From Bacteroidota bacterium (lineage in GTDB: Bacteria > Bacteroidota > Rhodothermia > Rhodothermales > UBA10348): a DNA stretch of 64,000 bases. Of the stretch, positions 9,303-36,211 are shown one piece after another. The stretch spans positions 1 through 64,000 of the forward strand of contig JADFHF010000014.1 of the NCBI GenBank assembly GCA_022567305.1, given 5' to 3'. Numbering within the stretch: position 1 is the stretch's first letter; each line of letters opens with the position of its first letter. The notes below the pieces were generated by a model. The model was not told the DNA's origin. It saw only the letters and a program-made list of their open reading frames with translations, and did not search any database. The position numbers and the translations under genes are program-made.

Positions 9303-9387
9303 GATCGAGCGTCATGGAGACCACTCTAGTGTCCACGGCAGATTCCTGTAGTGCCAGTATCGATCGGGAAGCTCCCAAAGGAGTTCG

Positions 9388-9407
9388 GCCAGAAGATGGC
9401 TTTTTTT
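9388..9407 (+). terminator. Weak intrinsic terminator
   Basis: GCCA-GAAGA-TGGC is followed at once by seven T residues (9401-9407). A second small hairpin (AGCTCC-CAAA-GGAGTT) lies just upstream. It is placed between two same-strand lipoprotein genes and could end the first or attenuate the second. The stem is only 4 bp. Confidence 0.4.
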
Positions 9408-9443
9408 GTAATGTCTGGCGGTTTGTGCTAGCGTGCGGTGCGA

Positions 9444-12821: not shown

Positions 12822-12844
12822 GCGCCGATTATCGGCTAGGCACG

Positions 12845-15175: not shown

Positions 15176-15500
15176 GACACAACCAAATCGACCATGGTCC
15201 AGACCCGCACCCAACATATGATTCGGTCCGATGTGAAGTTCAATCACCTGACGGATTTATCCATTCCTGACGGCGTCGTTACTCGAACACCCGTCACGAA
15301 TCACCAGCGGATAGGGCCGTGAATGCCCGTTATGAATAATGTTTATTGAACGGATTTGGTCTTGCTTTTCTGTGAACTTTCCTTCATCTTTTACGCCGAT
15401 ATAATCGCTGGTTCTGGAACTGTTAAAAGGCCGCGTTAGCACGATTGCGACGGGTTCTCCTTATGACCGATTTCCTCTCACCACAAGCGGGTTGAATAAA
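15176..15500. promoter_or_regulatory. Divergent control region between GH97 gene and susC
   Basis: About 325 bp separate the two start codons, so promoters for both directions must lie here. A small dyad AATAA-TGT-TTATT lies at 15335-15347, and a TATAAT hexamer at 15400-15405 has no matching -35 element at normal spacing. No regulator gene is adjacent. The call rests on gene arrangement, not on a recognised operator. Confidence 0.4.
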
Positions 15501-18500: not shown

Positions 18501-18518
18501 GTCAGCCTAGGATTTTGA
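15501..18518 (+). CDS. SusC/RagA-family TonB-dependent outer-membrane transporter
   Basis: 1005 residues from the ATG at 15501; a TTG lies 9 bp upstream in frame. Signal peptide MIKRCALLSLFALLGVSVVLGQG. Then a carboxypeptidase-regulatory-like domain (about 24-95), a TonB-box-like segment LEEVVVIGYGVQ, a plug domain with VIDGIPIDNSP and MTILKDASATAIYGSRGANG, and a long beta-barrel ending in aromatic FTFGVSLGF. SusC proteins import oligomers across the outer membrane using TonB energy with a SusD lid. The SusD gene follows 68 bp downstream, and a GH97 glycosidase gene is divergent upstream, suggesting an alpha-glucoside substrate, though this is inferred only from position. Confidence 0.95.
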   Translation: MIKRCALLSLFALLGVSVVLGQGREVTGTVTDGALGIALPGVNITIEGTTLGTTTALDGTYRIAIRGSSDVLLFSFVGFQTAREVVGDRSVIDVVMLEDLALLEEVVVIGYGVQRRGEVTGSTATLNVDDANKGLIAAPDEFIRGRIAGVTVTQNNGEPGSAFIIRIRGGTSISASNEPLYVIDGIPIDNSPITPDGIGISGQSPAARNPLNTINPNDIASMTILKDASATAIYGSRGANGVILITTKQGSAGRLTVDYDGYVSAQSLANKLDLVSASQYRSFIADQVSAGNLTQAALDNLGDANTDWQDEVMQTAIAQSHNLAFSGGTTDAQYRVSLGYLNQEGLVQQSGFERLTGRLNAQQNAMDGKLRLTVNLTSSFINDDFIAYNSTSGFEGAIMQSIFEMNPTFPVREGDEFFEIGPGRVRPANPVALANEIEDNSKTTRTLGNFSAEYDVLDNLTAKIQVGGDRAQASRRIFFPAASPGGSEFNGLAAQINRERSSYTVQTYLTFDDTFKQEHRLNVLGGYEFNQYIVESFGAQTRDFVTDLTGFDALQAGALRQEISSDKNRNRLISFFGRANYGFKDRYFLTAVLRYDGSSRFGSGNKWATFPALSAAWRISDEAFMSGNDFISDLRIKAGWGIVGSQEIGNNLALATLAADAANIAVIGGLPVTGFAPAAFANPDLKWEETSSINIGVDFGLSNGKYNGTIEYYQKNTTDLLLEISVPQPAPVPTRIENIGEVDNTGLELSFDALILDRPDLNLTIGGVFASNSNKVKSLGPRDQIITGTVQGRGQSGTFSQLIIPGEPLGTFFGPVFTGIADGAQQFADLDGDGTVEITSDDRQILGNAQPDFTYGLQFLLNYKEWDFSLFVRGEQGRDIFNNTALVYETKSSATQNVNFFASALDDGTALREPAKFSSRYIQDGSFLRIDNLTVGYTIDAKSLSQFAQRARVYVTVQNLLNITGYDGYDPEVDTQGNVGLAVLGVDYTSYPRPRTFTFGVSLGF

Positions 18519-18586
18519 CATTAGAACATCAAACTCGACGACCGCCTCGCGCGCCGCTCGATCAACCATAGATTTTGTATAAAGCT

Positions 18587-20152
18587 ATGAAGAACATGAA
18601 AAAGAACCCGAGACGATTGATGACAGTTGTACTGACTGCTCTCATCATTCCTTTAGGTTTTATCCTACAGTCCTGCACGGACCTCGCTGAAGACACGTTT
18701 GGCGTCGTGACACCCGAACAGTTCTACAATACCGATGCAGAGATACTGGCAGGCCTGGCACCGATCTACTCCCAGCTCCGAAGCATGATGGATGACTGGC
18801 ACAATCTGAGTCAGATAACTTCCGACGAAACCGTCGTGCCCACCCGTGGATCGGACTGGTTTGACGGCGGGCGGTGGCTCGCGATCCACCGCCACACGTG
18901 GGATGCAGGACTCACGGACTTGAATGGCGCCTGGAACGCCTCTTTTACGGGTATTGCTCGAGCCAACGGGCTACTTCAGATTCTGGAAGAGTCGGGCAGC
19001 ACCGATGACCAACTGAAGGCGGAAATCCGGTTCCTTCGCGCTTGGTATTACTATACGCTGATGGATTTCTTCGGCAATATTCCTATCGTGGGTGACGACG
19101 AGTTTATCGTAGACCAAGACAATCCTCCCGCGAACGAGGCGCGTGCTACCGTATTCGATTTCGTCGAATCGGAAGTGGAGTTCGCACGTGACAATCTGCC
19201 TGCATCGTGGCCGAGCTCTGGCTACGGCCGCGTAACGAAAGGCGCCGCAAGCGCCTTGCTCGCCAATATGTACTTGAATGCGGAGATCTTCAGGGGTACA
19301 CTGACGGCGGGCGGTATAACTAAAGGGTCCACGATGTGGCAGGAGGCGATTACGGCTGCCGATGCCGTCATCAATTCTGGTCAGTACAGCCTCTCGTCCT
19401 CGTACTTCGACAATTTTTCTCCGACAAACGAGAACTCTCCTGAACTCATCTTTGTCGTTGCAACCCTTCCGGTCGGAGGGCTTGGGATGAACTTCCAAAT
19501 GCGTTCGCTGCACTACAATCAGTGGACGCCCTCTCCGTGGAACGGCTTCTCAACGATCGCGTCGGTGTACGCGAAGTGGGATGCAAATGATCTTCGGCGC
19601 CAGATATTCCTGGCGGGTCCCCAGGTCAATCTCGAGACGGGGGAACCGGCTTTTGACCGTTCGGACAATCCCCTCGTTTTCGTTGAAACCTTCGGCAACA
19701 TAGAGGACGCCACCGAGGGCGAAGGGATCCGACCGCTGAAATTTCCTCCCGACCCCGCGCGTGCAGGTGGAGATAACGGAAACGATTACCCCTTCTTCCG
19801 GCTTGCTGAAATACTCCTGATTAAGGCCGAAGCGATGAATGAATTGGGCGGTCCGTCAGGAACAGTGGTCGATTTGCTTAATCAGCTTCGTGAACGTGCA
19901 TTTGAATTCGCAGACTTCGTACCACTCAGCGCCGGTGATTTCACACAGTCCAGCCTGCGTGATTTCATTTTCGACGAACGAGTACGCGAGCTTGCGTTCG
20001 AAGCGAAACGTCGTCAGGACCTCATCCGCGCAGGGAAGTTTACGGAACCATGGGAGTTCAAGACTAATTTCGAGCCTTACCGCGTATTCTTCCCCATTCC
20101 ACAGGTTCAGTTGGACTCTAACCCGAATCTCATACAGAATCCGGGATACTAG
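18587..20152 (+). CDS. SusD/RagB-family surface glycan-binding lipoprotein
   Basis: The frame opens with TTG at 18575; the ATG at 18587 (or 18596) fits the signal peptide better, giving 521 residues. A basic n-region, hydrophobic core and FILQSC lipobox mark an outer-membrane lipoprotein. SusD hallmarks are LNGAWNASFTGIARANGLL, EIRFLRAWYYYTLMDFFGNI, TPR-like helices, RLAEILLIKAEAMNELGG and the closing DERVRELAFEAKRRQDLIR segment. It should act as the lid that captures substrate for the adjacent SusC channel. A strong terminator follows 42 bp after the stop. Confidence 0.95.
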   Translation: MKNMKKNPRRLMTVVLTALIIPLGFILQSCTDLAEDTFGVVTPEQFYNTDAEILAGLAPIYSQLRSMMDDWHNLSQITSDETVVPTRGSDWFDGGRWLAIHRHTWDAGLTDLNGAWNASFTGIARANGLLQILEESGSTDDQLKAEIRFLRAWYYYTLMDFFGNIPIVGDDEFIVDQDNPPANEARATVFDFVESEVEFARDNLPASWPSSGYGRVTKGAASALLANMYLNAEIFRGTLTAGGITKGSTMWQEAITAADAVINSGQYSLSSSYFDNFSPTNENSPELIFVVATLPVGGLGMNFQMRSLHYNQWTPSPWNGFSTIASVYAKWDANDLRRQIFLAGPQVNLETGEPAFDRSDNPLVFVETFGNIEDATEGEGIRPLKFPPDPARAGGDNGNDYPFFRLAEILLIKAEAMNELGGPSGTVVDLLNQLRERAFEFADFVPLSAGDFTQSSLRDFIFDERVRELAFEAKRRQDLIRAGKFTEPWEFKTNFEPYRVFFPIPQVQLDSNPNLIQNPGY

Positions 20153-20194
20153 GTGTAAATATGTAGCTGATCTGTGGGGCTGAGCCTCATTCTT

Positions 20195-20232
20195 AGGCTT
20201 GGCCGAACCTGTTCGGCCAAGCCTTTGTTTTT
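20195..20232 (+). terminator. Strong intrinsic terminator after susD
   Basis: A perfect 14-bp inverted repeat (20195-20208 and 20211-20224, with CT between them) is followed by TTGTTTTT. It separates susC-susD from the downstream UnbV gene, so that gene probably has its own promoter or depends on read-through. Confidence 0.88.
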
Positions 20233-20376
20233 GCCAAGAAGCGGAATGGTCCACTTGGATCATCTATGATGGGCCGTTCTCTATTGGAACCGCCAAATGC
20301 GATCGGCGTCGACTCCCCGTACTCCCCGCGGGTTGACACGCAGCGTCGAAGAGTAACGACTCGTCGCAAAGCCGTC

Positions 20377-23300
20377 ATGTTCATGAGAATAAAAATTTCG
20401 TTATTTGGCCTGCTCACGGTCGTCGCGTGTTTAGAGACGGGGTGCCGCGGAGTCGTCGAGCCTTTCGAGAGCCTGGACGATACCGTCTTCACACTTCTTT
20501 CGCCGTCTGAAACCGGTCTCGATTTTACTAATCGACTGAACGACACCGAAGAATTCAACGTGTTTACGTACCGGAACTACTACAACGGAGGGGGTGTGGG
20601 AATTGCCGACCTCAACGGAGATGGTCTCGCAGACGTTTATATGACCGCCAATCAACTTCCAAATCGACTCTACCTGAATCGGGGTGATTTCCGTTTCGAA
20701 GAAGTCTCCGAAAAGGCGGGTGTAACTGGACATCGGGGGTGGTCGACAGGAATTAGTATTGCAGATGTGAATTCAGACGGTCTCCTCGATCTATATGTAT
20801 CCCATGCGGGCAATGCCGATGGAGAGGAAACCGCCAATGAGCTTTTTATCAATTTGGGCGCAGATGAGAACGGAATTCCTCGCTTTGAAGAACGAGCAGC
20901 CGAATTCGGCCTGGCGGATGAGGGATACTCAACCCACGCTTCGTTTTTCGACTACGATCGCGACGGCGATCTGGATGTCTATGTGCTGAATAATTCGTTT
21001 CGGTCTGTTGACAGTTTCGGACTCAGAAATATCCGTCATATACGCGACGAACGTGGTGGAGACAAGCTGTATCGCAACGACGACGGCCATTTTGTAGACG
21101 TCACCGTGTCAGCGGGCATTTTCAGCAGCGAGATCGGATTCGGACTGGGCGTTACACTCGGTGACGTAAATCAGGACGGTTGGATGGACTTGTACATCTC
21201 GAATGATTTCTTCGAACGAGACTATCTCTACATCAATGCGGGCGACGGGACATTCGATGAACAACTCGAATCATGGATGGGGCACATCAGCCTGTCGTCC
21301 ATGGGCGCAGATATGGGGGACATCAACAACGACGGATTTCCTGAAATTCACGTCACAGATATGCTCCCGGAAAGCGATCGCCGCTTAAAACTGACCTCCT
21401 CCTTTGAGTCCTGGGACACGTATAGCGCCAAGCTACGAAATGATTACTATCACCAGTACATGCGCAATATGCTCCACTTGAACAACACGGACGGCACGTT
21501 TAGCGAGATCGGTGAACTGTCGGGAGTCTCCCGCACGGACTGGAGCTGGGGTTCTCTCGTTGCAGACTTCGATCAGGATGGTTTGAAGGACATCTTTGTA
21601 GCCAATGGCATTTACAAGGATGTCACGAACCGGGACTTCATCGATTATTTTGCGAACGAAGAAACGATTCAGCGATTTGTCGAAGGCAAGGATCTAACAT
21701 TTCTCAACCTCTTGGAGCGGATTCCTTCCGAGTCCATCCCGAATTATGCTTTCCGCAATGAAGGGAACCTGACTTTTGTGAACATAGGCGAAGAATGGGG
21801 CCTCGCAACCACAGGCTTCTCAAACGGGGCGGCATTCGGCGACCTCGACAATGACGGGGATCTCGATCTGGTCGTCAATAATGTCAATATGCCCGCCTTC
21901 GTTTATCGGTCCAACGTGCGCCAACGCCTCTCGCCTAATTATCTCCAGGTTGAACTCGCTGGAAACAATGCGAATCGGTTCGGGATCGGTGCCAGAGTGA
22001 CCCTTCATGTAGATTCAGAACGGCTCGTTCTGGAGCAAACACCGATGCGGGGGTTCCAGTCGTCCGTAGACTATATCATGACATTCGGGTTGGGACTGCG
22101 CGACGCTATTGATTCGCTGACCGTCTCGTGGCCTGACGGATTATCGCAGACCGTACACGACGTAGAAATCAATCGGCGAATTCGATTGAGTCAGGACAAT
22201 GCGACGGAAACGGCGGAAGCCGATCCAGCCCCGGTAAAAGCTCGTCTCTTTCGCGAGATTACGGATGAGCTGGATCTGGAATTCGTACATCACGAAAACA
22301 ATTTTGTTGACTTCAACCGTGAGACCCTGATCCCGCGAATGGTCTCGACCGAGGGACCGCGTGTGGCCGTGGCCGATGTGAATGGCGATGGACTGGACGA
22401 TTTCTTCATTGGTGGAGCCAAAGAATTCGCCGGCCACCTTTTCGTGCAGGTGCCTGGCAATCAATTCGTGTCGATCAGCGAGGAGACTTTCGAGCAGGAC
22501 GCACTTTCCGAGGATGTCGCCGCCGCATTCTTCGATGCGGACGGCGACGGAGATGTGGATCTTTTTGTGGCGAGCGGAGGCAATGAGTGGACCGAACTTG
22601 CGCCAGGTTTGCAAGATCGTCTCTATCTGAACGACGGATTGGGTCACATGACACGCGCCCTGGATGCGATTCCCCGGGTGTTCGAGAGCTCGTCCTCAGT
22701 ACGGCCGAATGATTTCGACCGCGACGGCGATATCGATCTCTTTGTAGGTGGACGGCTTATCCCGTGGAAATACGGTCTTCCGACAAAGAGTCGGCTTTTG
22801 TCCAACCGAGGAGACGGCACGTTCGAAGATGTCACGATGACTATTGCTCCCGCACTGACTGGGCTGGGCATGGTAACCGACGCGACCTGGGCGGATTATG
22901 ATGCCGACGGGGATGACGATCTGATTGTCGTCGGAGACTGGATGCCTATTCAAATTCTCGCTAACGACCATGGATCCTTCGTGCCGGTCGACGCCGGTCT
23001 TGGCCACACTGAAGGCTGGTGGACGCGTATCGAGGCTGCAGATCTGGATGGGGACGGAGACGTCGACCTGGTTGTAGGCAACTTCGGCCAGAACAATCGA
23101 TTCAACGTTTCGCCTGCCACTCCGATCACGATGCATGTCAACGACTTCGATCGAAACGGCTGGATTGAGCAGGTGGTCTCGTTTTACCGCGGTGAGCGAT
23201 CCTATCCGATGGCGCTACGGGGTGAATTGTCAAATCGTCTCAGCTTTTTGAAAAAAAAGTACACGGACTACGCAGGATTTGCTGAGCAAAGTGTGGAAGA

Positions 23301-23742
23301 CATTTTCAGTAAAGAGCAACTAAGCGGGGCAGTCGTAAAAAGAGCGGTTACGCTCGAATCGGCCATTCTTCTGAATGAAGGAAATGGCAGGTTTCGTCGG
23401 ATAAGTTTGCCGGTGGAGGCACAACTCGCTCCCGTCTTTGGCATCCTTATCAGTGACTTCAACAAGGATGCCATACCGGACATTCTGTTGGCCGGTAATT
23501 TCTTCGGCTTCGCCCCGCAATTTGGCAGAATGGACGCCAATTACGGCCTGCTCCTAGTTGGCAACGGCGATGGCACGTTTGAGTCCATTTCGTCGAAGAA
23601 CTCTGGGTTCTCTGTTGCGGGCGAGACAAGAGATTTGGCTTCTTTGGAGATCGACGGCCATTCAGCGGTGCTTGTGGCAAAGAATGACGCTCGTCCCCAG
23701 TTTTTCCGGCTCATGGGGAATTCGGAAAGTGTAAGGCAATGA
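20377..23742 (+). CDS. FG-GAP/VCBS repeat, ASPIC/UnbV (CRTAC1-type) lipoprotein
   Basis: The frame begins at 20266, but the signal MFMRIKISLFGLLTVVACLE followed by TGC supports the ATG at 20377 (1121 residues). Architecture matches the gene at 9444: a first propeller set (DLNGDGLADVY, DVNSDGLLDLY, DYDRDGDLDVY, DVNQDGWMDLY), an ASPIC/UnbV domain about 520-605 (FGIGARVTLHVDS, FGLGLRDAIDSLTVSWPDG), and a second propeller set introduced by DFNRETLIPRMVSTEGP. The shared blocks around the UnbV domain show the two are paralogues. It lies between susD and a haloperoxidase-like gene, an order consistent with a shared uptake or surface-processing role. No catalytic motif is visible. Confidence 0.9.
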   Translation: MFMRIKISLFGLLTVVACLETGCRGVVEPFESLDDTVFTLLSPSETGLDFTNRLNDTEEFNVFTYRNYYNGGGVGIADLNGDGLADVYMTANQLPNRLYLNRGDFRFEEVSEKAGVTGHRGWSTGISIADVNSDGLLDLYVSHAGNADGEETANELFINLGADENGIPRFEERAAEFGLADEGYSTHASFFDYDRDGDLDVYVLNNSFRSVDSFGLRNIRHIRDERGGDKLYRNDDGHFVDVTVSAGIFSSEIGFGLGVTLGDVNQDGWMDLYISNDFFERDYLYINAGDGTFDEQLESWMGHISLSSMGADMGDINNDGFPEIHVTDMLPESDRRLKLTSSFESWDTYSAKLRNDYYHQYMRNMLHLNNTDGTFSEIGELSGVSRTDWSWGSLVADFDQDGLKDIFVANGIYKDVTNRDFIDYFANEETIQRFVEGKDLTFLNLLERIPSESIPNYAFRNEGNLTFVNIGEEWGLATTGFSNGAAFGDLDNDGDLDLVVNNVNMPAFVYRSNVRQRLSPNYLQVELAGNNANRFGIGARVTLHVDSERLVLEQTPMRGFQSSVDYIMTFGLGLRDAIDSLTVSWPDGLSQTVHDVEINRRIRLSQDNATETAEADPAPVKARLFREITDELDLEFVHHENNFVDFNRETLIPRMVSTEGPRVAVADVNGDGLDDFFIGGAKEFAGHLFVQVPGNQFVSISEETFEQDALSEDVAAAFFDADGDGDVDLFVASGGNEWTELAPGLQDRLYLNDGLGHMTRALDAIPRVFESSSSVRPNDFDRDGDIDLFVGGRLIPWKYGLPTKSRLLSNRGDGTFEDVTMTIAPALTGLGMVTDATWADYDADGDDDLIVVGDWMPIQILANDHGSFVPVDAGLGHTEGWWTRIEAADLDGDGDVDLVVGNFGQNNRFNVSPATPITMHVNDFDRNGWIEQVVSFYRGERSYPMALRGELSNRLSFLKKKYTDYAGFAEQSVEDIFSKEQLSGAVVKRAVTLESAILLNEGNGRFRRISLPVEAQLAPVFGILISDFNKDAIPDILLAGNFFGFAPQFGRMDANYGLLLVGNGDGTFESISSKNSGFSVAGETRDLASLEIDGHSAVLVAKNDARPQFFRLMGNSESVRQ

Positions 23743-25338: not shown

Positions 25339-25833
25339 GTGGCAACTATCTTCTACAGCCTCCGAAGTTGTGCCTTCCTAGCCATAGTCCTACTCCTCGG
25401 AGTAGGATGCGCGACTTCAAGCGAAGCGACTAAGTCTGACGCACCTGAAGGTGTATCGATCGGGTACGGGGATCAAGATAGAGACGATGTCCAAGGGGCC
25501 GTGACCAGTGTGGACATGGATGAGTCTGCGCGAAAAACTGCTCGAACCGTAGCCGAGATTCTCCGTGGACGTGTGTCGGGAGTCACCGTATTGCCAGCCC
25601 CTGGCGGAGGACTGCAGATTCGAATCCGTGGCGCCGCATCGTTTGCTCGGAACGCTTCTCCACTTTACATCGTCGATGGGATGCCCGTCCAAGCAGACCG
25701 AGATGGAACACTCACGATGTTGAATCCCTTTGACATCGAATCGATTTCGGTTCTGAAAGATGCTTCAGCAACGGCGATTTACGGCATGCGCGGAGCCCAC
25801 GGTGTCATCATCATAAAGACGAAGATCAGGTAA
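25339..25833 (+). CDS. Stand-alone TonB-receptor plug-domain lipoprotein
   Basis: 164 residues starting at a GTG. A signal peptide ends LLLGVGC (Cys24), a clear lipobox. Residues about 70-164 are one SusC-type plug domain: ILRGRVSGVTVLPAPGGG, IRIRGAASF, PLYIVDGMPV, DIESISVLKDASATAIYGMR and GAHGVIIIKTK. In a full receptor the barrel would start straight after this; here the gene ends with a stop and no barrel sequence follows. The lipobox and intact reading frame argue for a genuine small protein rather than a truncated receptor. It may cap or regulate a transporter. It lies between the haloperoxidase-like gene and two symporter genes. Confidence 0.85.
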   Translation: MATIFYSLRSCAFLAIVLLLGVGCATSSEATKSDAPEGVSIGYGDQDRDDVQGAVTSVDMDESARKTARTVAEILRGRVSGVTVLPAPGGGLQIRIRGAASFARNASPLYIVDGMPVQADRDGTLTMLNPFDIESISVLKDASATAIYGMRGAHGVIIIKTKIR

Positions 25834-26067: not shown

Positions 26068-27723
26068 ATGCCAGAGTTTACACTGCATGCTGTCGACTTG
26101 GTAATGGTCGGTCTTTACGTTGTCTTTATCATAGCCGTCGGGTTTTACGTATCAAAGAGAGCCAGTACGACCGATGATTATTTTCTTGCTGGTCGAACGC
26201 TTACCTGGTGGCTCATTGGCTTCTCTCTGTTTGCCTCCAACGTCTCTTCGAGCACGCTGGTTGGGCTTTCCTCGAGCGCTTACAGTACGGGTATTGCCGT
26301 CTATAATTATGAATGGATGGCGGCGCTCGTTTTAGTCGTCTTCATCGTCTTCTTTCTACCTTTCTATCTCAGATCACGCGTTTTCACCCTGCCGGAGTTT
26401 CTCGAGCTGCGCTTCGACGGACGCTCTCGGTATTACGTCTCGGGTGTGATGGTCTTGATGAATATCGCTATAGACACGGCAGCAGCGCTTTACGCCGGAT
26501 CCCTCGTCGTGCAGATACTGTATCCAGAGTTGCCGCTATGGATTGCCGTCGTCATTCTTGGCGCACTGGCAGGACTCTACACCGTAGCAGGCGGTCTGAA
26601 AGCAGTCGTTTATACGGACGCTGTTCAAGCCGTTCTGCTTTTGCTAGGCTCGCTCATTGTTGCCTGGCTTTCCTTTGAGGCAATCGGCTCTTGGAGCGCC
26701 GTCACAGCCGTAGTCCCAGAATCGGACCTAAGCCTCATCATGCCTGCTGACGATCCCTCCCTACCATGGCCTGGCCTCTTGACCGGAGTCTTCCTACTCG
26801 GGTTCTACTTTTGGGGTACTAATCAATTCATGGTGCAGCGGATGCTTGGCGCAAAAGACCTCAATCACGGTAGATGGGGGGCACTTTTTGCTGGATTCCT
26901 AAAGCTCACGGTCATTTTTATCATGGTGCTTCCAGGAATATTCGGGCGGTTGCTGTACCCGATCGAACAGTATCCAGCGCTTGTCAACTCTGACCTGATT
27001 TTCCCGATCATGATGTTCGATCTCCTTCCGGTGGGCATTCGCGGATTGATTATTGCCGCGCTCGTGGCGGCTATCATGTCGAGTGTAGACTCAACGCTCA
27101 ATTCTGCCTCCACACTGGTCACAATGGACTTCGTGAAGAAGCTGCGTCCGACGATCGGTAATCGAGGCCTCGTGGTAACCGGTCGGATCGTTACCTTTGT
27201 TTTCATGGCTCTCGCTATAATCTGGGCGCCCAACATTGCCAAATTTCCAAATCTTTGGACCTATCTACAGGCTGTGTTGGCCTACCTAAGCCCTCCTATC
27301 GTGGCGTGTTTCATTGTCGGCGTATTTTGGAAGCGGGCGAGTCGGAATAGCGCTTTTGCGGCGTTGATCGCCGGTCACTTCGTAGCTGCTGTCGTTTTTC
27401 TTGCCGTCTTAAGCAATAGACTGATTGTACAGACGGGAGTGCTCTCCGCGGAACAGCTTAACCTCGTAGACTCTGGAGTCCCTGTGATTCATTTCCTTTA
27501 TCTAGTGCCCCTGCTGCTTCTTGTCAGCATCGGTGTGATGGTAATCACCAGCCTATACTCAGGAAAACCAGATCCGGAACAGATCGATCAGCTAACATGG
27601 TCGCCTGAATTCTTCCGCGCTGAAACAGCCGAATTGAAGGAACTTCCGTGGTATCAGAACTATCGGATTCTTGCGGTTGGGATGTTGATCCTGATCGCCG
27701 TTTTCGTCGGGATATTCTGGTAG
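26068..27723 (+). CDS. Sodium:solute symporter (SSF/SGLT-like)
   Basis: 551 residues, strongly hydrophobic with about 13-14 membrane helices. The N-terminus has DYFLAGRTLTWWLIGFSLFASNVSS, the SSF helix 1-2 region. The middle has VAGGLKAVVYTDAVQAV, the classic SSF signature, and a later VAAIMSSVDSTLNSASTLVTMD segment contributes to the Na+ site. Most similar in style to SGLT-like sugar or inositol symporters. It lies 30 bp upstream of a second SSF gene, so the two are probably co-transcribed. It should carry the substrate across the inner membrane after SusC-type outer-membrane uptake; the substrate is unknown. Confidence 0.92.
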   Translation: MPEFTLHAVDLVMVGLYVVFIIAVGFYVSKRASTTDDYFLAGRTLTWWLIGFSLFASNVSSSTLVGLSSSAYSTGIAVYNYEWMAALVLVVFIVFFLPFYLRSRVFTLPEFLELRFDGRSRYYVSGVMVLMNIAIDTAAALYAGSLVVQILYPELPLWIAVVILGALAGLYTVAGGLKAVVYTDAVQAVLLLLGSLIVAWLSFEAIGSWSAVTAVVPESDLSLIMPADDPSLPWPGLLTGVFLLGFYFWGTNQFMVQRMLGAKDLNHGRWGALFAGFLKLTVIFIMVLPGIFGRLLYPIEQYPALVNSDLIFPIMMFDLLPVGIRGLIIAALVAAIMSSVDSTLNSASTLVTMDFVKKLRPTIGNRGLVVTGRIVTFVFMALAIIWAPNIAKFPNLWTYLQAVLAYLSPPIVACFIVGVFWKRASRNSAFAALIAGHFVAAVVFLAVLSNRLIVQTGVLSAEQLNLVDSGVPVIHFLYLVPLLLLVSIGVMVITSLYSGKPDPEQIDQLTWSPEFFRAETAELKELPWYQNYRILAVGMLILIAVFVGIFW

Positions 27724-27753
27724 TCGTTCCGGATCAACAAGCCCGTATGTGAC

Positions 27754-29676
27754 ATGGTCGATCTTCTAATAATACTCGCTTTCATTATCTACGCCATCGC
27801 GGCAGGCTTTCGCTCGAAACGTAAAGCCTCCGAAAATCTTCAGGAATATTTTTTAGCAGGAAAAACAATTTCTGGATGGCGAGCCGGCCTGAGTATGGCA
27901 GCGACCCAATTCGCGGCCGATACACCCCTTCTTGTAACCGGACTCATCGCCACGGGGGGCATATTTCTTGTCTGGCGATTGTGGATTTACGGTCTGGCTT
28001 TTTTACTGATGGCATTCGTTTTCGCGTCTGGGTGGCGCCGCGCTGGCGTCTTGACGGATGCGGAATTAACGGAGGTTCGTTACAGTGGACGAGGAGTTCT
28101 GGGGCTTCGCGTACTAAAGGCGGTATACTACGGCACCGTGATCAACTGTGTCGTTATGGCCATGGTCCTCGTCGCCGCCGTGCGCATTGCCGAAGTCTTC
28201 TTGCCGTGGCACGAATGGCTTCCGGGAGGCCTCTATAACGGTATCGCCTCATTCGTCGGATTGCTCGGCCTCTCGTTCGGTGAAAGCGTAACGGGCCTTT
28301 CTCCGGGTTTCGCGAGCACGAATGCCTTTCTGAGCATTGTGCTGATCATCGCTTTCACGGCTTTGTATTCCACGACCGGCGGCCTCAGAAGCGTCATCGC
28401 TACCGACGTCATGCAGTTCGGGTTGGCTATGGTCGGTACGCTCGCCTACGCCTGGATCGTCGTTCGACACGCAGGCGGATTTGGGGAACTCGTGGATCAG
28501 ATGGTTTCGATCTATGGGACTGAAAGAGCGGGCGAGATGCTCTCGTTCGGACCACCAGATCTAGCTCCGGCAATTCTAATGCCATTTCTTATAATTATCG
28601 GGCTTCAATGGTTCTTCCAGATGAATAGCGACGGCACCGGATACCTCGCCCAACGTTCGATGGCATGCTCGACCGATCGTGATGCCCGCGTAGCTGGCGT
28701 TGTTTTCGCCTGGGCCCAAATTTTGTTCCGGAGCCTGATCTGGCTTGCGATCGGCGTTGGTCTGCTCGTTCTGTATCCGTTTGTGCTCTCCGATGCTTCC
28801 GCTGACGGTTTCACTGCAGCACGCGAACTGACATTCGTACAGGGAATCGAAGATCTTCTCCCCGTCGGGATCCGAGGCCTGATGCTTACGGGACTGCTTG
28901 CAGCGCTCGCCTCAACCATTGATACACACTTAAACTGGGGCGCTTCCTATTGGAGCAACGATATCTATGCAAGACTCATCTGCCAGCACTGGCGGCATCG
29001 AGATCCCTCGAATCGTGAACTGGTATTGGTTGCGAGGCTTTCAAACATCCTGATTATTGGGATCGCACTCGTAATTATGGTCAATTTGGGATCGATTCAG
29101 GAGGCGTGGTACCTGTCACTATTATTCGGTGCAGGTGTGGGTTCGGTTCTCGTTCTGAGGTGGTTGTGGGAGAGGATCAATCTGTACTCCGAGTTGGGCG
29201 CCATCGTCGCCTCATTTGTGATGGCTCCCCTCTTGCTGATGACCATGGGGATGGAGACCGAGTCAGAGTGGATCCGGCTTACGCTTATGGCGGCCGTAAC
29301 AACAGCGGTGGCTGTCGGCGTTACCTGGTTTACTCCTTCTACGGACCGGGCTGTGCTCCAGAAATTCTATCGACGCGTTCGTCCCATGGGCGCGTGGGGC
29401 AATATCGCCGCCTCCGTGGGAGACGATCCGACTGCTCCTCGTAGAGAACTCTGGCGCCGGATCCGCATGACAATCATCTGTGCCGCTTCCCTTTTTCTGC
29501 TTCTCGTCGGACTCGGACGATTGATGATCAGTATGCCTGAAGCATCCCAGTTCTTAACCTGGGTGCTGATTCTTGCAGGAATCGGCCTCATCCCGCTCTG
29601 GTGGCGCCAGGCGTTCACCGAGGAGACCCTCGACGAGGCTCGTCATCAGATTCCGAGTGCGGACTCAGGGGACTGA
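27754..29676 (+). CDS. Second sodium:solute symporter (SSF family)
   Basis: 640 residues with about 12-14 membrane segments. SSF features: EYFLAGKTISGWRAGLSMAATQFAADTP near the N-terminus, TTGGLRSVIATDVMQFGLAM in the middle, and LLAALASTIDTHLNWGASYWSND for the second sodium-site region. The C-terminus adds an extended cytoplasmic loop and one more helix. It belongs to a different SSF subgroup from its upstream neighbour. The substrate is not evident. Its stop is 2 bp from the stop of the convergent PfkB kinase gene. Confidence 0.92.
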   Translation: MVDLLIILAFIIYAIAAGFRSKRKASENLQEYFLAGKTISGWRAGLSMAATQFAADTPLLVTGLIATGGIFLVWRLWIYGLAFLLMAFVFASGWRRAGVLTDAELTEVRYSGRGVLGLRVLKAVYYGTVINCVVMAMVLVAAVRIAEVFLPWHEWLPGGLYNGIASFVGLLGLSFGESVTGLSPGFASTNAFLSIVLIIAFTALYSTTGGLRSVIATDVMQFGLAMVGTLAYAWIVVRHAGGFGELVDQMVSIYGTERAGEMLSFGPPDLAPAILMPFLIIIGLQWFFQMNSDGTGYLAQRSMACSTDRDARVAGVVFAWAQILFRSLIWLAIGVGLLVLYPFVLSDASADGFTAARELTFVQGIEDLLPVGIRGLMLTGLLAALASTIDTHLNWGASYWSNDIYARLICQHWRHRDPSNRELVLVARLSNILIIGIALVIMVNLGSIQEAWYLSLLFGAGVGSVLVLRWLWERINLYSELGAIVASFVMAPLLLMTMGMETESEWIRLTLMAAVTTAVAVGVTWFTPSTDRAVLQKFYRRVRPMGAWGNIAASVGDDPTAPRRELWRRIRMTIICAASLFLLLVGLGRLMISMPEASQFLTWVLILAGIGLIPLWWRQAFTEETLDEARHQIPSADSGD

Positions 29677-29677
29677 T

Positions 29678-30673
29678 TCAGTCCTCATGAAAGTCAAAGT
29701 CATGGGCACTTTCTGAAGCGACACACCGGCGTGCGACACGATTCCCGTCCCGCGCAGCGTCGAAAACGGACTCGAAATCCCGCCCGACCAGTCCGGCGAT
29801 AAACCCGGCACACCAGGCGTCGCCAGCTCCAGTGGCATCGGTGACATTCGATGACTCAACCCGGATGATTTCAGCCCGATCATCACGATCTACGACCGCG
29901 CAGCCGTCTTTTCCCATAGTAATAATGACCGCCGTCGCTTCGCCGCACATCTGCCGCAATCGTCTGGCGGCGGAGACAGCGTGTTCTCCATCACCCATCG
30001 GCATTTGGCTGTTTCCCAGTATCTGCTGCGCCTCCATTAGATTGGGAATGAGATAGTCTGTGAACAAAAGAACCGGCCCAAGCGCCCGTTGCCAATCCTC
30101 TGATGTGTGTCCATGCACGAGTGTCGTGTTGACAGAAACCCTTAATTGCGGACGGTGTTGCTTCGCACGCTCAACGACCTCACCCAAATCTTCGCCCCCA
30201 AAATTGGGCAGTATTCCCAGTGAGGACAGGTGCAATAATCTCAGACCATTTCCGCGATCCTGGATCCAGCGTTCCAACATTCCTGCGTCCAAGCGTGAGC
30301 TCGTGCCGGGCATATATACAAAACTGGGCTCACCATCTTCCGCAACGGAGATGAGCGCGTGCGCCGTTGGGTTGTCAGTACCGTTGGTGCCTAACAATAA
30401 CGATTGATCAAAGTGAACACCACTTCTCGCGAGCCGCTCCAGAATGAACCTACCGTAATAATCGTCCGAAATCGATGCCACGAGGTGGGAATTCACATCA
30501 AGTCTGGAGAGAACGATGGCCGTGTTCAACGCATTGCCGCCTACCGAGACCTTTGGGTTGGTTATGACAGCGCGTTCACCTCGACCCGGCCAGTGGTTCA
30601 ATCCGGTTAGATAAACATCCACACATGCGTTTCCGACACAGGCGACAAGATCATTTTTTCTACGATCAAACAT
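29678..30673 (-). CDS. PfkB-family carbohydrate kinase
   Basis: 331 residues with the PfkB/ribokinase fold. The substrate-side motif GGNALNTAIVLSRL is at 45-58; the ATP-side signature DATGAGDAWCAGF is at 279-291 with Asp285 the catalytic base. FSDYLIPNL-like LLFTDYLIPNLMEAQQIL is the usual NxxE region. It phosphorylates a sugar or nucleoside; the sequence does not specify which. Its position, convergent with two symporter genes, makes phosphorylation of an imported sugar plausible. The upstream flank (30674-30826) holds no gene. Confidence 0.92.
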   Translation of the reverse strand: MFDRRKNDLVACVGNACVDVYLTGLNHWPGRGERAVITNPKVSVGGNALNTAIVLSRLDVNSHLVASISDDYYGRFILERLARSGVHFDQSLLLGTNGTDNPTAHALISVAEDGEPSFVYMPGTSSRLDAGMLERWIQDRGNGLRLLHLSSLGILPNFGGEDLGEVVERAKQHRPQLRVSVNTTLVHGHTSEDWQRALGPVLLFTDYLIPNLMEAQQILGNSQMPMGDGEHAVSAARRLRQMCGEATAVIITMGKDGCAVVDRDDRAEIIRVESSNVTDATGAGDAWCAGFIAGLVGRDFESVFDAARDGNRVARRCVASESAHDFDFHED

Positions 30674-31282: not shown

Positions 31283-33811
31283 TTACCGAATTACGTAACT
31301 CGCACTGAAGAACAGATGTCTGGTCGCGTGTGGAAAAAACTGCGGACCCACGACGCTGACGTTTCCGTACGCCAGCACCTTCTCGTCCAATACATTGTTT
31401 ACGTCGAACCCGATTCGGAGCCCTGCAAACGTCGATGTGGGTGAGAATTCATACCGAAGGGAACCATCTAGAAGAGTAAATGCTTCCGTAACGAGAGATT
31501 CCGAAACCGTCCCATCCGGCAGCTCTCCGTTGCTATTATCGATGTACTGTTTGCCCACATGAGTCGCATGGACGTTTGCCGTTAGGCTCCCAACGGTATA
31601 CGTGATACCCAGATTTCCAGAAACGTCTGGAAAACCCGCAATCGGATTATCGTCTCTTGCGAGGTTTACGGTTGAGAAGTCTGCTAGAGTGACAAATTCT
31701 TCAAACGAAAGAAAACGATTCCTGCTCAGCGTCAGGTTTCCGGCGAATACCAGGCCCGATAATATTACGGCAGAGCTTTCCAGCTCCACCCCCATATGCC
31801 GAGACCGGTCCGCGTTCCCGGTTCGTGGGACTCCGAACTGATCGAGCCCGCCCGAGGGTACAATTTCATCCTGGAATCCCATATAGAACAAATTCAGGGC
31901 AGCATGATATCTTTTGTGCTTTGCAATCAGGCCGATCTCGATATCGACCAATCGTTCCGCATCCACCAGCGGTCGATCAAAATCGATACGATCATCCGGC
32001 CCGGGGTGAAACGCCGGTAGAAAACCAGCCCCCGCCTCCTCCCCATCATACAATGTCTTCATTCGCGGTTCGCGGTTGGCGATGGCGACGCTGGCATAGG
32101 CGGATACGTTTTGTTCGGGATTGAACGTGATGCCGATCCTGGGATTGACAAAAACGTAAGGGACTCGGAAATCGTTGCCGAAATAGTCCTCATCGTAGAC
32201 TCGATACGACCGATAGGTCAGCTGAACGTCAGCCTGAATGGCCCACTTCTCCGACGGTCGGATCAAAGTGGACCCTGAAAGTGACGCAATGGCCTTTTCA
32301 CCCCGAAATGAATAGACGCGGACATCGTTCTCGGATCCAACGAGCTCAATCGGAATCCCTGTGGCCTCCTGAATTCGCCCCCAGCGCAACGATCTGTGCA
32401 GGCGAAGCTCCGCACCAATACGTGTCGTCAACGTCTCGCCTGTAAACGTAACGCTTGGTAACCATCCGACCTGCCACTGATCCAGAAAGGCCCTGAAAAG
32501 CACAGATACATCAGGTCGTGAAATAAAGAGGGGCGCTACCCGATCCGTGTCGGGCACGAATCCATCGGGGAGGCGCAGATAGTCCGCTGACCTGAACGTC
32601 CCGCCAAAATCAAAAAACCCTTTCCCCTGAATCCAGAATAATGCCTGGCTCAGCCGGGCCGAACTCGAGAGTCGGAGATCGTGATGGAGCTCTAGGTGAG
32701 GCTGGTGAAAATCTTCCAGGTCTCGAGCGAAGGCGCTGAAATTGTATTTCCGATCGATCTCCGTTCCAAAATCGTCGACGATGGTCTGTTTGTTGGCTGC
32801 TTTCGGGATGCCCGAGTAGGCTAAGCCGTCTCTCTGCGGTCCTCCGTACGCCTGCAGGGTGACAGATGATCGTAGACCGTACCGCGTGACTCCGGCAAAA
32901 AAGCGCCAGAATTCTGTCCACGACCAGTCCCGATATCCATCCGAGAGCAAACGACTCAGTCTACCAAACACCACATATTTTCCCTGTACCAACCCGGAAT
33001 TCGCTTCAAAAGAAATCCTCCGGGTATTAAAGGCACCTGCACCGATCTCGGTTTTAAAGTATCTGAATGGCCGATATGGAAATGCACGAATATTTACAGC
33101 CCCTCCGATGGCCGCTGGACCATAAAACGATGAACCGGCACCCCGCTGTACCTGGATGTCGTCGATCACTCCTTGAATATCGAAGAAATTGATCCAGAAT
33201 ACATTGAACTCTTCGGGGTCATTCTGAGGTATTCCATTGATTGAAATAGCCAGGCGGCGCTGGCCAAAACCTCTCATCCTGAGCGTTGAATAGCCAATTC
33301 CGTTTCCGTTTTCAGAGTAAAATGTTGTTGATGGCAAGCGAGCCAGTAGAACGGGCAAATCCTTCATTTCGGGTAACCGCTCCAGCTGCTCGGCCGACAG
33401 GTTGCTCACGGTTACGGGGTGAAGCTGGAGTTTCGTTCGATTCGAACTCACCACAACTCCTGTCTGTGGGATAGCCCGAGTACTGAGGAGAATTCTGATT
33501 CCGCGCTGATCATTCGAAGTCAGATCCAGCGATACGACCTGCGAAACGTACCCGACAAAAGAGACCGTCAGGTCGTAGCGTCGAGCTTGCACGTCGGAAA
33601 ATCGGAATTCCCCGACTTCATTCGCGGACATCCCATAGCGCTGAAACCCGGAGGATTTGTATGAGAGAACCACAGAGGCGCCTTCTAACGCGCCTCCCGT
33701 TTCATCAACCACAACGCCTGAAACCAGACGTTGAGCATAACCCCACTGACTGAACCCGGTAAATCCAAGAAGTACGAGTACCAGGACGAGAATCATTCGT
33801 GATCGTTGCAT
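31283..33811 (-). CDS. TonB-dependent receptor for thiamin or a thiamin precursor
   Basis: 842 residues from the ATG at 33811, which follows GGAAA at suitable spacing; an in-frame start 36 bp upstream would lie inside the terminator T-tract. Signal peptide MQRSRMILVLVLVLLGF...YAQ. A carboxypeptidase-regulatory-like domain (about 27-110), a plug (about 120-240, with RGAGSSFYGPAAIGGAVNI) and a 22-strand-type barrel ending HLFFSASYVIR. A TPP riboswitch and terminator lie directly upstream, so the cargo is probably thiamin or a degradation product; TPP-regulated receptors of this kind are known in Bacteroidota. It stands alone, with no inner-membrane thiamin transporter next to it. Confidence 0.92.
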   Translation of the reverse strand: MQRSRMILVLVLVLLGFTGFSQWGYAQRLVSGVVVDETGGALEGASVVLSYKSSGFQRYGMSANEVGEFRFSDVQARRYDLTVSFVGYVSQVVSLDLTSNDQRGIRILLSTRAIPQTGVVVSSNRTKLQLHPVTVSNLSAEQLERLPEMKDLPVLLARLPSTTFYSENGNGIGYSTLRMRGFGQRRLAISINGIPQNDPEEFNVFWINFFDIQGVIDDIQVQRGAGSSFYGPAAIGGAVNIRAFPYRPFRYFKTEIGAGAFNTRRISFEANSGLVQGKYVVFGRLSRLLSDGYRDWSWTEFWRFFAGVTRYGLRSSVTLQAYGGPQRDGLAYSGIPKAANKQTIVDDFGTEIDRKYNFSAFARDLEDFHQPHLELHHDLRLSSSARLSQALFWIQGKGFFDFGGTFRSADYLRLPDGFVPDTDRVAPLFISRPDVSVLFRAFLDQWQVGWLPSVTFTGETLTTRIGAELRLHRSLRWGRIQEATGIPIELVGSENDVRVYSFRGEKAIASLSGSTLIRPSEKWAIQADVQLTYRSYRVYDEDYFGNDFRVPYVFVNPRIGITFNPEQNVSAYASVAIANREPRMKTLYDGEEAGAGFLPAFHPGPDDRIDFDRPLVDAERLVDIEIGLIAKHKRYHAALNLFYMGFQDEIVPSGGLDQFGVPRTGNADRSRHMGVELESSAVILSGLVFAGNLTLSRNRFLSFEEFVTLADFSTVNLARDDNPIAGFPDVSGNLGITYTVGSLTANVHATHVGKQYIDNSNGELPDGTVSESLVTEAFTLLDGSLRYEFSPTSTFAGLRIGFDVNNVLDEKVLAYGNVSVVGPQFFPHATRHLFFSASYVIR

Positions 33812-33830
33812 CCGATTTCCAACGCGAATA

Positions 33831-33872
33831 AAATAAAAAAAGGGCACCCCTCAGAATCTGTGGATTACCCTT
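33831..33872 (-). terminator. Riboswitch-controlled intrinsic terminator
   Basis: On the minus strand AAGGGTAATCC (33872-33862) pairs with GGGGTGCCCTT (33850-33840) with two G-T wobbles and one mismatch, followed by a T-rich tract (33840-33831). It lies between the TPP aptamer and the receptor start codon, the usual place for an expression platform. Its 5' arm AAGGGTA is also complementary to TACCCTT inside the aptamer (33962-33956), giving a mutually exclusive antiterminator. Confidence 0.75.
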
Positions 33873-33918
33873 CGACACGACTCGGTTCTGCTGAACAATA
33901 AAAAGAGTCGCAGGCTGG

Positions 33919-33999
33919 CTGTTTTCCTTCGCCGGCATAATCCGGATCAGGTTCCAAGGGTATTCTCTCAGCCTGCCAATTTACAGGCACCCCCAACAG
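33919..33999 (-). promoter_or_regulatory. TPP riboswitch (thi-box aptamer)
   Basis: The minus strand shows the conserved thi-box blocks in order: CTGTT (5' arm of P1), GGGGGTGCC, GGCTGAGA, ACCCTTGGAACCTGATC, GGATTATGCCGGCGAAGG, and AACAG closing P1. These form the pyrimidine-binding and pyrophosphate-binding arms of the TPP aptamer. The downstream gene is a TonB-dependent receptor. High TPP should favour termination and reduce receptor synthesis. Confidence 0.95.
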
Positions 34000-34151
34000 A
34001 TGCTGGAACAGGATGTCAAATTGCTCTGATCGTATACTTGCAAATACTCTGTCTGTTCTCATGGAGACCGGACCTTGACTCTCGTCAGAGCGTAAGCGGG
34101 CTCACCAGAACTCGTTCTTTTCCCGTAATTGCCATTTTCAGAGGAATCATC

Positions 34152-35201
34152 ATGGCAGCAATTCATATCCCACCCGGATGGCGTATTCCCGAATCGAGAG
34201 CCACTTCCGAATCCGCCTATCAGAATCGAAGAGCTTTTCTGAAAAAAATGGGCTTGGGGACGATCGCCGTTGCCTCTGCGGCGCACTTTCCGGGATGTGG
34301 ACCTAAAGCAGCCCATACCACTCCGACCCTTCTTCCAGACGGGCCGCTGGATACGATCCCGAAATTGGCTCCGAGGGAGGGTTATCCGGCCATGCGAAGC
34401 CGGTCCTTTGACGTACCTGAAAGACCGATAACGACGTACGTTGCAGCGGCTTCGTATAACAATTTTTACGAATTCATTTTTGATGGTGATTTAAAAAACG
34501 TGTGGCCACTCACGGGAGCGTATGAACCGTTCCCAATGACGATTGCGGTCAAAGGTCTGGTTGAGAAACCGTTCACGCTCGACGTGGCCGACCTCATACG
34601 GGAGATGGATCTGGAAGAACGGCTGTACCGATTCCGATGCGTCGAAGCCTGGTCAATGACGATTCCCTGGACCGGCTTCCCGCTACGCAGATTAATCGAG
34701 AGGTGTAAACCGCTATCGTCGGCGACTCACGTTCGATTCGTGAGCGTAAATCGACCCAAGCAGATGCCCGGAATTACCAAGGGTCATTGGTACCCATGGC
34801 CCTACTACGAGGGCTTGCGCATGGCGGAGGCGACCAACAATCTGGCGTTTGTTGCTACCGGGATGTACGGAAATCCGCTACCGAAGCAGAACGGCTCGCC
34901 CCTTCGACTGGTGCTGCCGTGGAAGTATGGCTACAAAGGCCCGAAAGCCGTTGTCGAAATCGAGTTCGTCGACAGACAGCCACCTACCTTCTGGAACGAC
35001 CTCCAAGTGAAGGAATACGGATTCCTGTCAAATGTCAATCCAAACATCCCTCATGTTAGATGGACCCAGGCCAAGGAGCGCTTCATCAGCGATGTGGATA
35101 CCATTGAAGAGCGCCCGACGGCCCTTTTCAACGGGTATTCGACCTGGGTCGGTAGTCTCTATCCGGACGAACCAACAGAGTTTACCCGGATGGTTCGCTA
35201 G
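34152..35201 (+). CDS. msrP: Periplasmic protein-methionine-sulfoxide reductase catalytic subunit (MsrP/YedY family)
   Basis: The frame starts at 34038, but MAAIHIPPGWRIPESRATSE at the ATG of 34152 is the typical N-terminus, giving 349 residues. A twin-arginine signal (QNRRAFLKKMGLGTIAVASAA, residues 24-44) exports the folded molybdoenzyme. The molybdenum ligand is Cys163 in YRFRCVEAWSM. C-terminal GSPLRLVLPWKYGYKGPK and FWNDLQVKEYGFLSNVNPN are family blocks. MsrP repairs oxidised periplasmic methionines using electrons from the membrane haem protein MsrQ. No msrQ is adjacent; the next gene is convergent and overlaps by 4 bp. Confidence 0.95.
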   Translation: MAAIHIPPGWRIPESRATSESAYQNRRAFLKKMGLGTIAVASAAHFPGCGPKAAHTTPTLLPDGPLDTIPKLAPREGYPAMRSRSFDVPERPITTYVAAASYNNFYEFIFDGDLKNVWPLTGAYEPFPMTIAVKGLVEKPFTLDVADLIREMDLEERLYRFRCVEAWSMTIPWTGFPLRRLIERCKPLSSATHVRFVSVNRPKQMPGITKGHWYPWPYYEGLRMAEATNNLAFVATGMYGNPLPKQNGSPLRLVLPWKYGYKGPKAVVEIEFVDRQPPTFWNDLQVKEYGFLSNVNPNIPHVRWTQAKERFISDVDTIEERPTALFNGYSTWVGSLYPDEPTEFTRMVR

Positions 35202-35704
35202 GGGGCGCTACCCGGTGGAGTCGGCGGAACTTGCCCGAACGGTTCGCTGAGGGACGCTTTCTTCAGGGATCGATTCCAGGCGAAGACGGCTACGAATGCC
35301 ATCCACATAGCAATAAACGTCATCGCTGCATTGCTCAGGGCGATACGGCGCTGGGTGCCAATAATCGACGAGATGACCACCTCCTGCCCGCTCCCTTCGA
35401 GGACGCGTACGTGAAGGGTGTCTTTTTCGACGCGATGCGCGATAGAGTAGGGTAATGACAGCTTAGTGCGCTCGAGGATTCTGCCATCAGGGAGCTCGAT
35501 TTTCAGGTCCAGCTCGGCGTGGGTAACATCTTTCCGATCGGATCGATCATACCGCGTTACCTCAGCTATCGCCGATACACCCTCGTTTGCCGTGCGGCCG
35601 AGATCCAGGGTTACTTTGATGAAATACCCGGAGAAAAAGAGTAAAAGGAGAGGTACGACCCAGGCACCCCGGGCTATCAGATGGCTTGGCGAAAGCGTGT
35701 TCAA
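35198..35704 (-). CDS. Small membrane protein, DUF3592-like
   Basis: 168 residues with a membrane helix at about 13-32 (ARGAWVVPLLLLFFSGYF), a soluble beta-rich middle (about 40-118) and a second helix at about 122-145, followed by a Pro-rich tail. This two-helix layout with a small domain between, including AIAEVTRYDRSD and ILERTKLSLPYSI, resembles DUF3592 proteins. Function unknown. Its stop overlaps the convergent msrP stop. It lies 6 bp after the stop of the HNH gene, so the two share a transcript. Confidence 0.7.
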   Translation of the reverse strand: MNTLSPSHLIARGAWVVPLLLLFFSGYFIKVTLDLGRTANEGVSAIAEVTRYDRSDRKDVTHAELDLKIELPDGRILERTKLSLPYSIAHRVEKDTLHVRVLEGSGQEVVISSIIGTQRRIALSNAAMTFIAMWMAFVAVFAWNRSLKKASLSEPFGQVPPTPPGSAP

Positions 35705-35710
35705 ATTGAC

Positions 35711-36211
35711 CTACGACAAAAACAGATACGGTTTCCAGGTGTCGTCCAGTGACCCCACGAAGTCACGAATGTACATTACGTAGCTCGGACGAAATGGCTT
35801 TCTTGAAAGCTTCATCGCAGCCTCGGAAGGGGTGCGATTCCCTTTTCGGTTGTTGCACGGAATGCAGGCCGTCACCAGGTTTTCCCAGGTGTCTTTTCCG
35901 CCGCGAGATTTCGGTACCACGTGATCAACCGTGAGTTGGTTTTTGCTGTTACAATATTGACAGCGGTGACGGTCACGTCTGAGTACGTTCTTTCTCGTGA
36001 TCATGATCTTCTTATACGGCACGCGGATGTACGCCTTCAGTCTAACGATGCTCGGCCACGGAATCTGCAAATTCGGTGATCGAACAAATCGACCGGATTC
36101 AGCCTCCACCAACTCCGCTTTCTGCAAGATTACGAGAACCGTAGCTCTCCGAACACTTGTGATCGTGAGAGCCCGATAGTCTTGGTTGAGCACGAGGACG
36201 TGACCGGTCAT
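35711..36211 (-). CDS. HNH endonuclease family protein
   Basis: 166 residues. A zinc knuckle is formed by Cys84-x2-Cys87 (RCQYCNS) and Cys116-x2-Cys119 (ACIPCNNRKG), framing the HNH core with Asp96-His97 (TVDHVVPKSRGG) and Asn120/121. The N-terminus (MTGHVLVLNQDYRALTITS) is characteristic of a widespread chromosomal HNH family whose role is unsettled. No restriction, phage or toxin partner is nearby, so a housekeeping nuclease is more likely than a mobile or defence one. Confidence 0.88.
   Translation of the reverse strand: MTGHVLVLNQDYRALTITSVRRATVLVILQKAELVEAESGRFVRSPNLQIPWPSIVRLKAYIRVPYKKIMITRKNVLRRDRHRCQYCNSKNQLTVDHVVPKSRGGKDTWENLVTACIPCNNRKGNRTPSEAAMKLSRKPFRPSYVMYIRDFVGSLDDTWKPYLFLS

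Follow-up and report, generated by a model that had tools for sequence, protein, structure and literature searches.

Introduction

Among the described systems closest to the locus considered here is OMthi (BT2390) of Bacteroides thetaiotaomicron, a TonB receptor which, together with PnuT and Tnr3, has a role in B1 acquisition and whose gene is likewise preceded by a TPP riboswitch (PMC5613172). When BT2390 was deleted in a biosynthesis mutant, the thiamin EC50 rose from 2.8 to 15.8 nM (PMC5613172); our literature search yielded no binding data for this protein. In Caldithrix abyssi, the locus Cabys_3975-3977 comprises a TPP switch, a TonB receptor, a sodium symporter and a thiamin pyrophosphokinase (TPK), the receptor being described as highly similar to BT2390 (PMC5317091), and among the papers retrieved this is the one report of the receptor-TPK-symporter operon type. 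Marine surveys refer to Omr1, a putative B1 receptor of unclear specificity, which by description is comparable in that a TonB receptor is located near a TPP switch in marine auxotrophs (PMC10881298, PMC12442306). Finally, ThiV of SAR11 represents TPP-switched uptake in an organism that has retained the thiazole branch but, lacking ThiC, is auxotrophic for pyrimidine; among the B1 auxotrophies of marine microorganisms, that for pyrimidine is described as the most common (PMC11452348). Outer-membrane receptors collecting B1 vitamers, and their vitamer preferences, have been little tested so far.

The present analysis concerns a TPP riboswitch and the TonB-dependent receptor gene behind it, both located within a stretch of 64,000 nt (the window) from a 95.6% complete Rhodothermales genome of 3.76 Mb (G000). 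While B. thetaiotaomicron makes thiamin, has its biosynthesis operon under a second TPP switch and possesses PnuT as well as a pyrophosphokinase (PMC5613172), the receptor gene of G000 has the only TPP switch of its genome, and ThiC, TPK and PnuC are absent. The C. abyssi locus is of the type encountered in 33 loci outside Rhodothermales, the receptors of which are homologous to that of the window; the latter, however, stands alone, without TPK or symporter. Similarly, ThiV parallels the window in regulation and auxotrophy but is an inner-membrane symporter instead of an outer-membrane receptor. Since the C. abyssi locus has been published with a BT2390-like receptor, neither the receptor family nor its likely cargo, thiamin, is new. 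It is the setting that is new, namely a TPK-less pyrimidine auxotroph with its only TPP switch on an outer-membrane receptor; a literature search on thiamin auxotrophy in Rhodothermales returned nothing.

A TPP riboswitch precedes a TonB-dependent receptor gene

A complete TPP riboswitch aptamer (THI element, RF00059) occupies positions 33907..34004 of the minus strand, where the Rfam covariance model matches over its full length (model positions 1-105/105) with 73.0 bits (gathering score 54.3; E 1.9e-12). It is the sole Rfam match within the window and the sole match to the Rfam TPP model in the whole genome. A first-pass annotation, made from the letters of the sequence, had read the minus-strand leader as a thi-box element controlling a receptor with a regulatory-like domain, plug and barrel. 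The covariance match bears out the riboswitch, the extent of which had to be corrected, as the aptamer reaches 34004, and all three domains of the receptor were recovered above their Pfam cut-offs in an 854-aa ORF (31283-33847, minus strand): a carboxypeptidase-regulatory-like domain (PF13620; residues 42-121, 33485..33724), a TonB plug domain (PF07715; residues 143-250, 33098..33421) and a TonB-dependent beta-barrel (PF00593; residues 330-819, 31391..32860). The receptor gene itself was annotated correctly, except, probably, for its start: GTG 33847 sits within the stem of the terminator described below, whereas ATG 33811 opens a signal-peptide-like stretch and is the likelier start, so that the gene probably spans 31283..33811 on the minus strand, with the stop at 31283.

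Possession of both plug and barrel places the protein among the TonB-dependent receptors, in agreement with an AlphaFold model of this fold (pLDDT 85, pTM 0.79) for which every best Foldseek match was a TonB receptor. The top match and nearest solved fold is PqqU/YncD, the PQQ receptor of Escherichia coli (9c4o, 6v81; TM 0.84 on target), which is likewise a cofactor receptor but merely 16-17% identical, so its ligand is not transferable; by sequence, no close solved structure was found.

Terminator and predicted antiterminator

Just 5' of the ATG, the minus strand carries an intrinsic terminator (33829..33873), formed by GAAGGGUAAUCC...GGGGUGCCCUU and followed by a U run. The free energy of its hairpin, -15.3 kcal/mol, was equalled in 4/1000 dinucleotide shuffles of the 98-nt stretch between aptamer and ATG. 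Folding of the entire leader was not better than that of shuffled sequences (z -0.38), for which reason the specific terminator alone was tested further. When the ligand-free nascent RNA was folded up to the last terminator arm, it adopted a structure other than aptamer plus terminator. Herein, AUCUGU (33996-34001) is predicted to pair with ACAGAU (33856-33861) with a probability of 0.52-0.86, and UACCCUU (33956-33962) with AAGGGUA (33866-33872). Both cross-pairings would disrupt the aptamer and take up the terminator's 5' arm (and its loop), which makes the two aptamer segments within 33956..34001 of the minus strand the predicted antiterminator strands. This assignment is suggestive only, as the aptamer-terminator cross-pairing was equalled in 9/200 shuffles, a weak control.

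The terminator and the predicted antiterminator indicate a transcriptional OFF switch with a predicted response to its ligand. Upon binding of TPP, the aptamer would stay closed, allowing the downstream terminator to form and truncating the receptor mRNA. On the other hand, when TPP is scarce the 5' terminator arm would pair with aptamer sequence and the receptor would be made. Against this explanation counts the finding that the OMthi transcript of B. thetaiotaomicron is unchanged by thiamin (PMC5613172). In a survey of related leaders, a clear terminator was present in 34/37 from outside Rhodothermales versus 9/36 from Rhodothermales, the window's being among the nine, as compared to 32/360 mononucleotide-shuffled controls. 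Given that 27/36 Rhodothermales leaders are devoid of a clear terminator, the mechanism of the switch may differ among close relatives.

Thiamin metabolism of the source genome

In G000, one gene cluster encodes ThiO, ThiS, ThiG, a TenI-like protein and ThiD, while ThiE, TenA and ThiL are encoded elsewhere, all of them on contigs other than that of the window. ThiO, ThiS, ThiD, ThiE, TenA and ThiL exceed their NCBIfam cut-offs, TenA barely so (130.6 vs 130), and ThiG exceeds its Pfam cut-off. By its Cys motif, APCPWLY, TenA appears to be of the cysteine type as described in PMC10470507, an assignment made by eye. Contamination is unlikely because in the relative G098 the thi cluster and TenA are flanked by the same genes as in G000 (ORFs judged by eye). 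ThiC, TPK (PF04263) and PnuC (PF04973) were not found in G000, which hence does not combine PnuT with a thiamin pyrophosphokinase as the OMthi-PnuT-Tnr3 system does. Since ThiC is the pyrimidine synthase, G000 needs pyrimidine from outside.

The earlier proposal that the receptor must feed a distant system agrees with the location of these genes. As to the inner-membrane step, G000 contains neither PnuC nor a symporter of the TPK-operon or the Salinibacter type (see below), and no thiamin kinase was seen near ThiL. PnuC was considered as an inner-membrane thiamin transporter and discarded: in addition to its absence from G000, it adjoins a NadR-like gene (by eye) in two relatives (L125, L130), and since nicotinamide riboside may be its substrate, its co-occurrence with the receptor was not used as evidence. 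Another rejected candidate, the G000 symporter at C7:32082-33329, scores 200 bits, well below the at least 619 bits of TPK-operon members, and adjoins a predicted aminotransferase and a peptidase (by eye).

Distribution among Rhodothermales

Across 114 Rhodothermales genomes the receptor, present in 53, is mostly solitary, its downstream genes being mainly convergent. A switch lies at most 600 nt 5' of the receptor gene in 46/53 receptor genomes, and 44/53 have exactly one TPP switch, whereas among the 27 genomes encoding ThiC the switch is situated ahead of ThiC in 21. ThiC occurs in none of the 53 receptor genomes as opposed to 27 of the remaining 61 (Fisher 2e-9, a count that takes the genomes to be independent although they are not), and the occurrence of ThiC and of the receptor largely follows the families within the order. 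TPK (PF04263) was detected in 0/114 genomes, with positive matches in all seven control genomes, while ThiL is present in 112; this order-wide absence of TPK with ThiL retained constitutes a clear puzzle. The symporter of the TPK-operon type is missing as well, the best Rhodothermales match scoring 200 bits versus at least 619 for the operon members tested.

With respect to the remaining pathway, 27 of the receptor genomes encode both ThiE and TenA, two ThiE alone and 24 neither. The latter (e.g. G003, G012, G092 and G106) possess ThiL but are devoid of ThiC, ThiE-family proteins and TPK, and thus show no visible route from thiamin to TPP. In Salinibacter altiplanensis (G062; L139 4365-9140, minus strand, also L200), switch, receptor, symporter and TenA follow each other consecutively in one direction, and the same order recurs in the related genome G069 (L140 725-5705, minus strand, also L202). 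This symporter is of another subfamily than that of the TPK operons, with close orthologues confined to a single genus, in four genomes that all encode the receptor. According to the receptor tree, the pathway tail has changed about four to five times while the receptor persisted. In one ThiC-lacking relative (G053; L018 1501-3099), a TPP switch was noticed before a gene for an NMT1/THI5-type substrate-binding-like protein (by eye).

The receptor family beyond Rhodothermales

An alignment of 33 receptors, used to scan 84,980 species genomes, retrieved 417 relatives, the best 80 of which were kept; these derive from Rhodothermales and from KSB1, Calditrichota, Ignavibacteria and Chlorobi records, among others. 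By means of a covariance model built from Rhodothermales aptamers, a TPP switch was located immediately 5' of the receptor gene in 72 of these best 80, and of the eight relatives without upstream switch, four are truncated by a contig end. In 33 loci, all from outside Rhodothermales, the switch is followed by receptor and TPK genes in the same direction, and in 28 of these 33 a sodium symporter gene comes next after TPK, again in the same direction. The TPK_catalytic, TPK_B1_binding and SSF domains were confirmed on sampled operon members.

The window's receptor shares 37-43% identity with receptors whose operons include TPK, and this homology to TPP-switched receptors accompanied by TPK assigns it to the OMthi/Omr1 family, for which thiamin transport or binding is predicted; the link to BT2390 runs through the description given in PMC5317091. 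The receptor-TPK-symporter operon across the family is the strongest evidence on the predicted cargo.

Some loci deviate from this pattern. Four Rhodothermales receptor loci (L189, L191, L198, L203) have no TPP switch despite available upstream sequence, and three of them match only from residue 186 or a later one. In a Caldithrix sp. (L218 515-9424), two adjacent TPP switches precede a ThiM-ThiE-ThiL-ThiD-TenA cluster (ThiL by eye) and a receptor-TPK-symporter operon, respectively, and in a Neomarinimicrobiota locus (L234 1167-1264 and 1383-1484), tandem TPP aptamers are located 5' of a single receptor gene.

Probable cargo and rival explanations

Taken together, we consider it probable that a TPP-off riboswitch controls an OMthi/Omr1-family receptor importing a pyrimidine-containing B1 vitamer, most likely intact thiamin. 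The receptor would bring this vitamer into the periplasm, the imported material would be converted to HMP by TenA and to HMP-PP by ThiD, ThiE would join HMP-PP to the cell's own thiazole phosphate, and ThiL would phosphorylate the product to TPP. ThiL is placed as the final step because no thiamin pyrophosphokinase was found. Intact thiamin is favoured since about four to five changes of tail with the receptor kept speak for a cargo that every tail can use; free pyrimidine is of no use to genomes without ThiE, and the cargo serving all would be thiamin, which TenA would cleave in genomes lacking TPK. Without TPK, thiamin is usable only via TenA cleavage or a hypothetical thiamin kinase, and the 24 receptor genomes devoid of ThiE-family proteins and TPK are not explained by this reading, but need imported thiamin phosphate or such a kinase. 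A more specific scenario, which we put forward tentatively and hold to be possible rather than probable, is a cut-and-rebuild route in TPK-less Rhodothermales: an ancestral thiamin receptor would supply TenA with thiamin or its pyrimidine fragments, and the resulting HMP would be rebuilt with home-made thiazole, the receptor being the sole TPP-controlled step and having a new inner-membrane partner, as exemplified by the receptor-symporter-TenA order of Salinibacter.

The evidence pulls two ways, in that the Salinibacter operon and the pairing of ThiE with TenA point to pyrimidine salvage, whereas the TPK of the deep family and the receptor tree point to thiamin. Hence, the receptor in the window's lineage might be specific for the free pyrimidine or breakdown products (HMP, AmMP, FAMP) instead of thiamin. 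G000 needs the pyrimidine half only and has TenA with its catalytic Cys motif, ThiD and ThiE; in Salinibacter the receptor is followed by symporter and TenA; ThiE and TenA travel together in the receptor genomes; and SAR11 imports HMP, most likely via its TPP-switched symporter ThiV (PMC11452348). Nevertheless, receptor orthologues, many of them 53-54% identical, occur in the 24 genomes without ThiE, which are unable to use HMP, and in the deep family the receptor is accompanied by TPK, an enzyme acting on thiamin, which renders specificity for pyrimidines rather unlikely. The same pairing outside Rhodothermales speaks against import of thiamin monophosphate or diphosphate, used directly or via ThiL; we regard this as distinctly improbable, even though TPK is missing from 114/114 genomes, ThiL is present in 112, and no alternative means of using B1 is apparent in the 24 receptor genomes. 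Hardly any credence is given to a thiazole cargo, which was among the breakdown products proposed in the first-pass annotation and for which salvage is known elsewhere, because G000 encodes its own thiazole branch (ThiO-ThiS-ThiG-TenI) and, without ThiC, is short of the pyrimidine half only. Of the uptake initially proposed, of thiamin or a breakdown product, a B1 vitamer receptor under a TPP switch is supported, while the thiazole option is unlikely. Although sequence cannot separate thiamin, its pyrimidine fragments and thiamin phosphate, we would rank thiamin first, pyrimidine vitamers second and thiamin phosphate third, with thiazole very unlikely. The accompanying statement that ligands of TPP-linked receptors are poorly defined is accurate as regards binding data and close solved structures, but too sweeping in view of the raised thiamin need upon loss of BT2390 (PMC5613172). 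The family offers a natural experiment, as the same receptor is kept with tails of three kinds: TPK operons, able to use thiamin directly; TenA with ThiE, which can probably use pyrimidine; and tails in which the genes found would allow neither; because one receptor family spans these different tails, ligand specificity and its evolutionary change are directly testable.

A rival of another kind concerns the reach of the switch, which might extend to a downstream PfkB kinase gene (29678-30673) and make the receptor part of a neighbouring sugar cluster. This kinase is the next gene on the same strand, and two symporters lie beyond it. It is, however, 610 nt away, leaving the receptor monocistronic by position; neither kinase nor symporters were found beside the receptor in any of the 20 relatives examined, where mostly convergent genes follow downstream; by score the kinase is ribokinase-like and far under every equivalog cut-off; and the window's symporters reach 99 bits at best versus at least 619 for the thiamin-operon type. 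Such an extended control is highly improbable, and the original view that the receptor is the sole gene the leader can control probably holds. The kinase and both symporters were accordingly rejected as partners of the receptor, their neighbourhood not being conserved and the symporters not being of the operon type.

Other features of the window

The two sodium symporter genes are encoded on the plus strand and end 2 bp from the convergent, ribokinase-like PfkB kinase gene of the minus strand (26068-30673 in total), an arrangement that is probably sugar-related and adjoins a polysaccharide-type gene cluster. A sugar-utilisation-like cluster at 5694-23742 comprises a SusC-like receptor (15492-18518), SusD (18575-20152), a GH97 enzyme (12845-15247, minus strand) and three FG-GAP/UnbV_ASPIC proteins. 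Between the two, a 164-aa ORF (25339-25833) exhibits a complete plug domain and a SusC/RagA signature without a barrel, and may represent an orphan plug protein or a remnant. On the other side of the riboswitch, 34038-36211 encodes an MsrP-like molybdopterin oxidoreductase, a small membrane protein and a 166-aa ORF, which are kept beside the receptor in many Rhodothermales.
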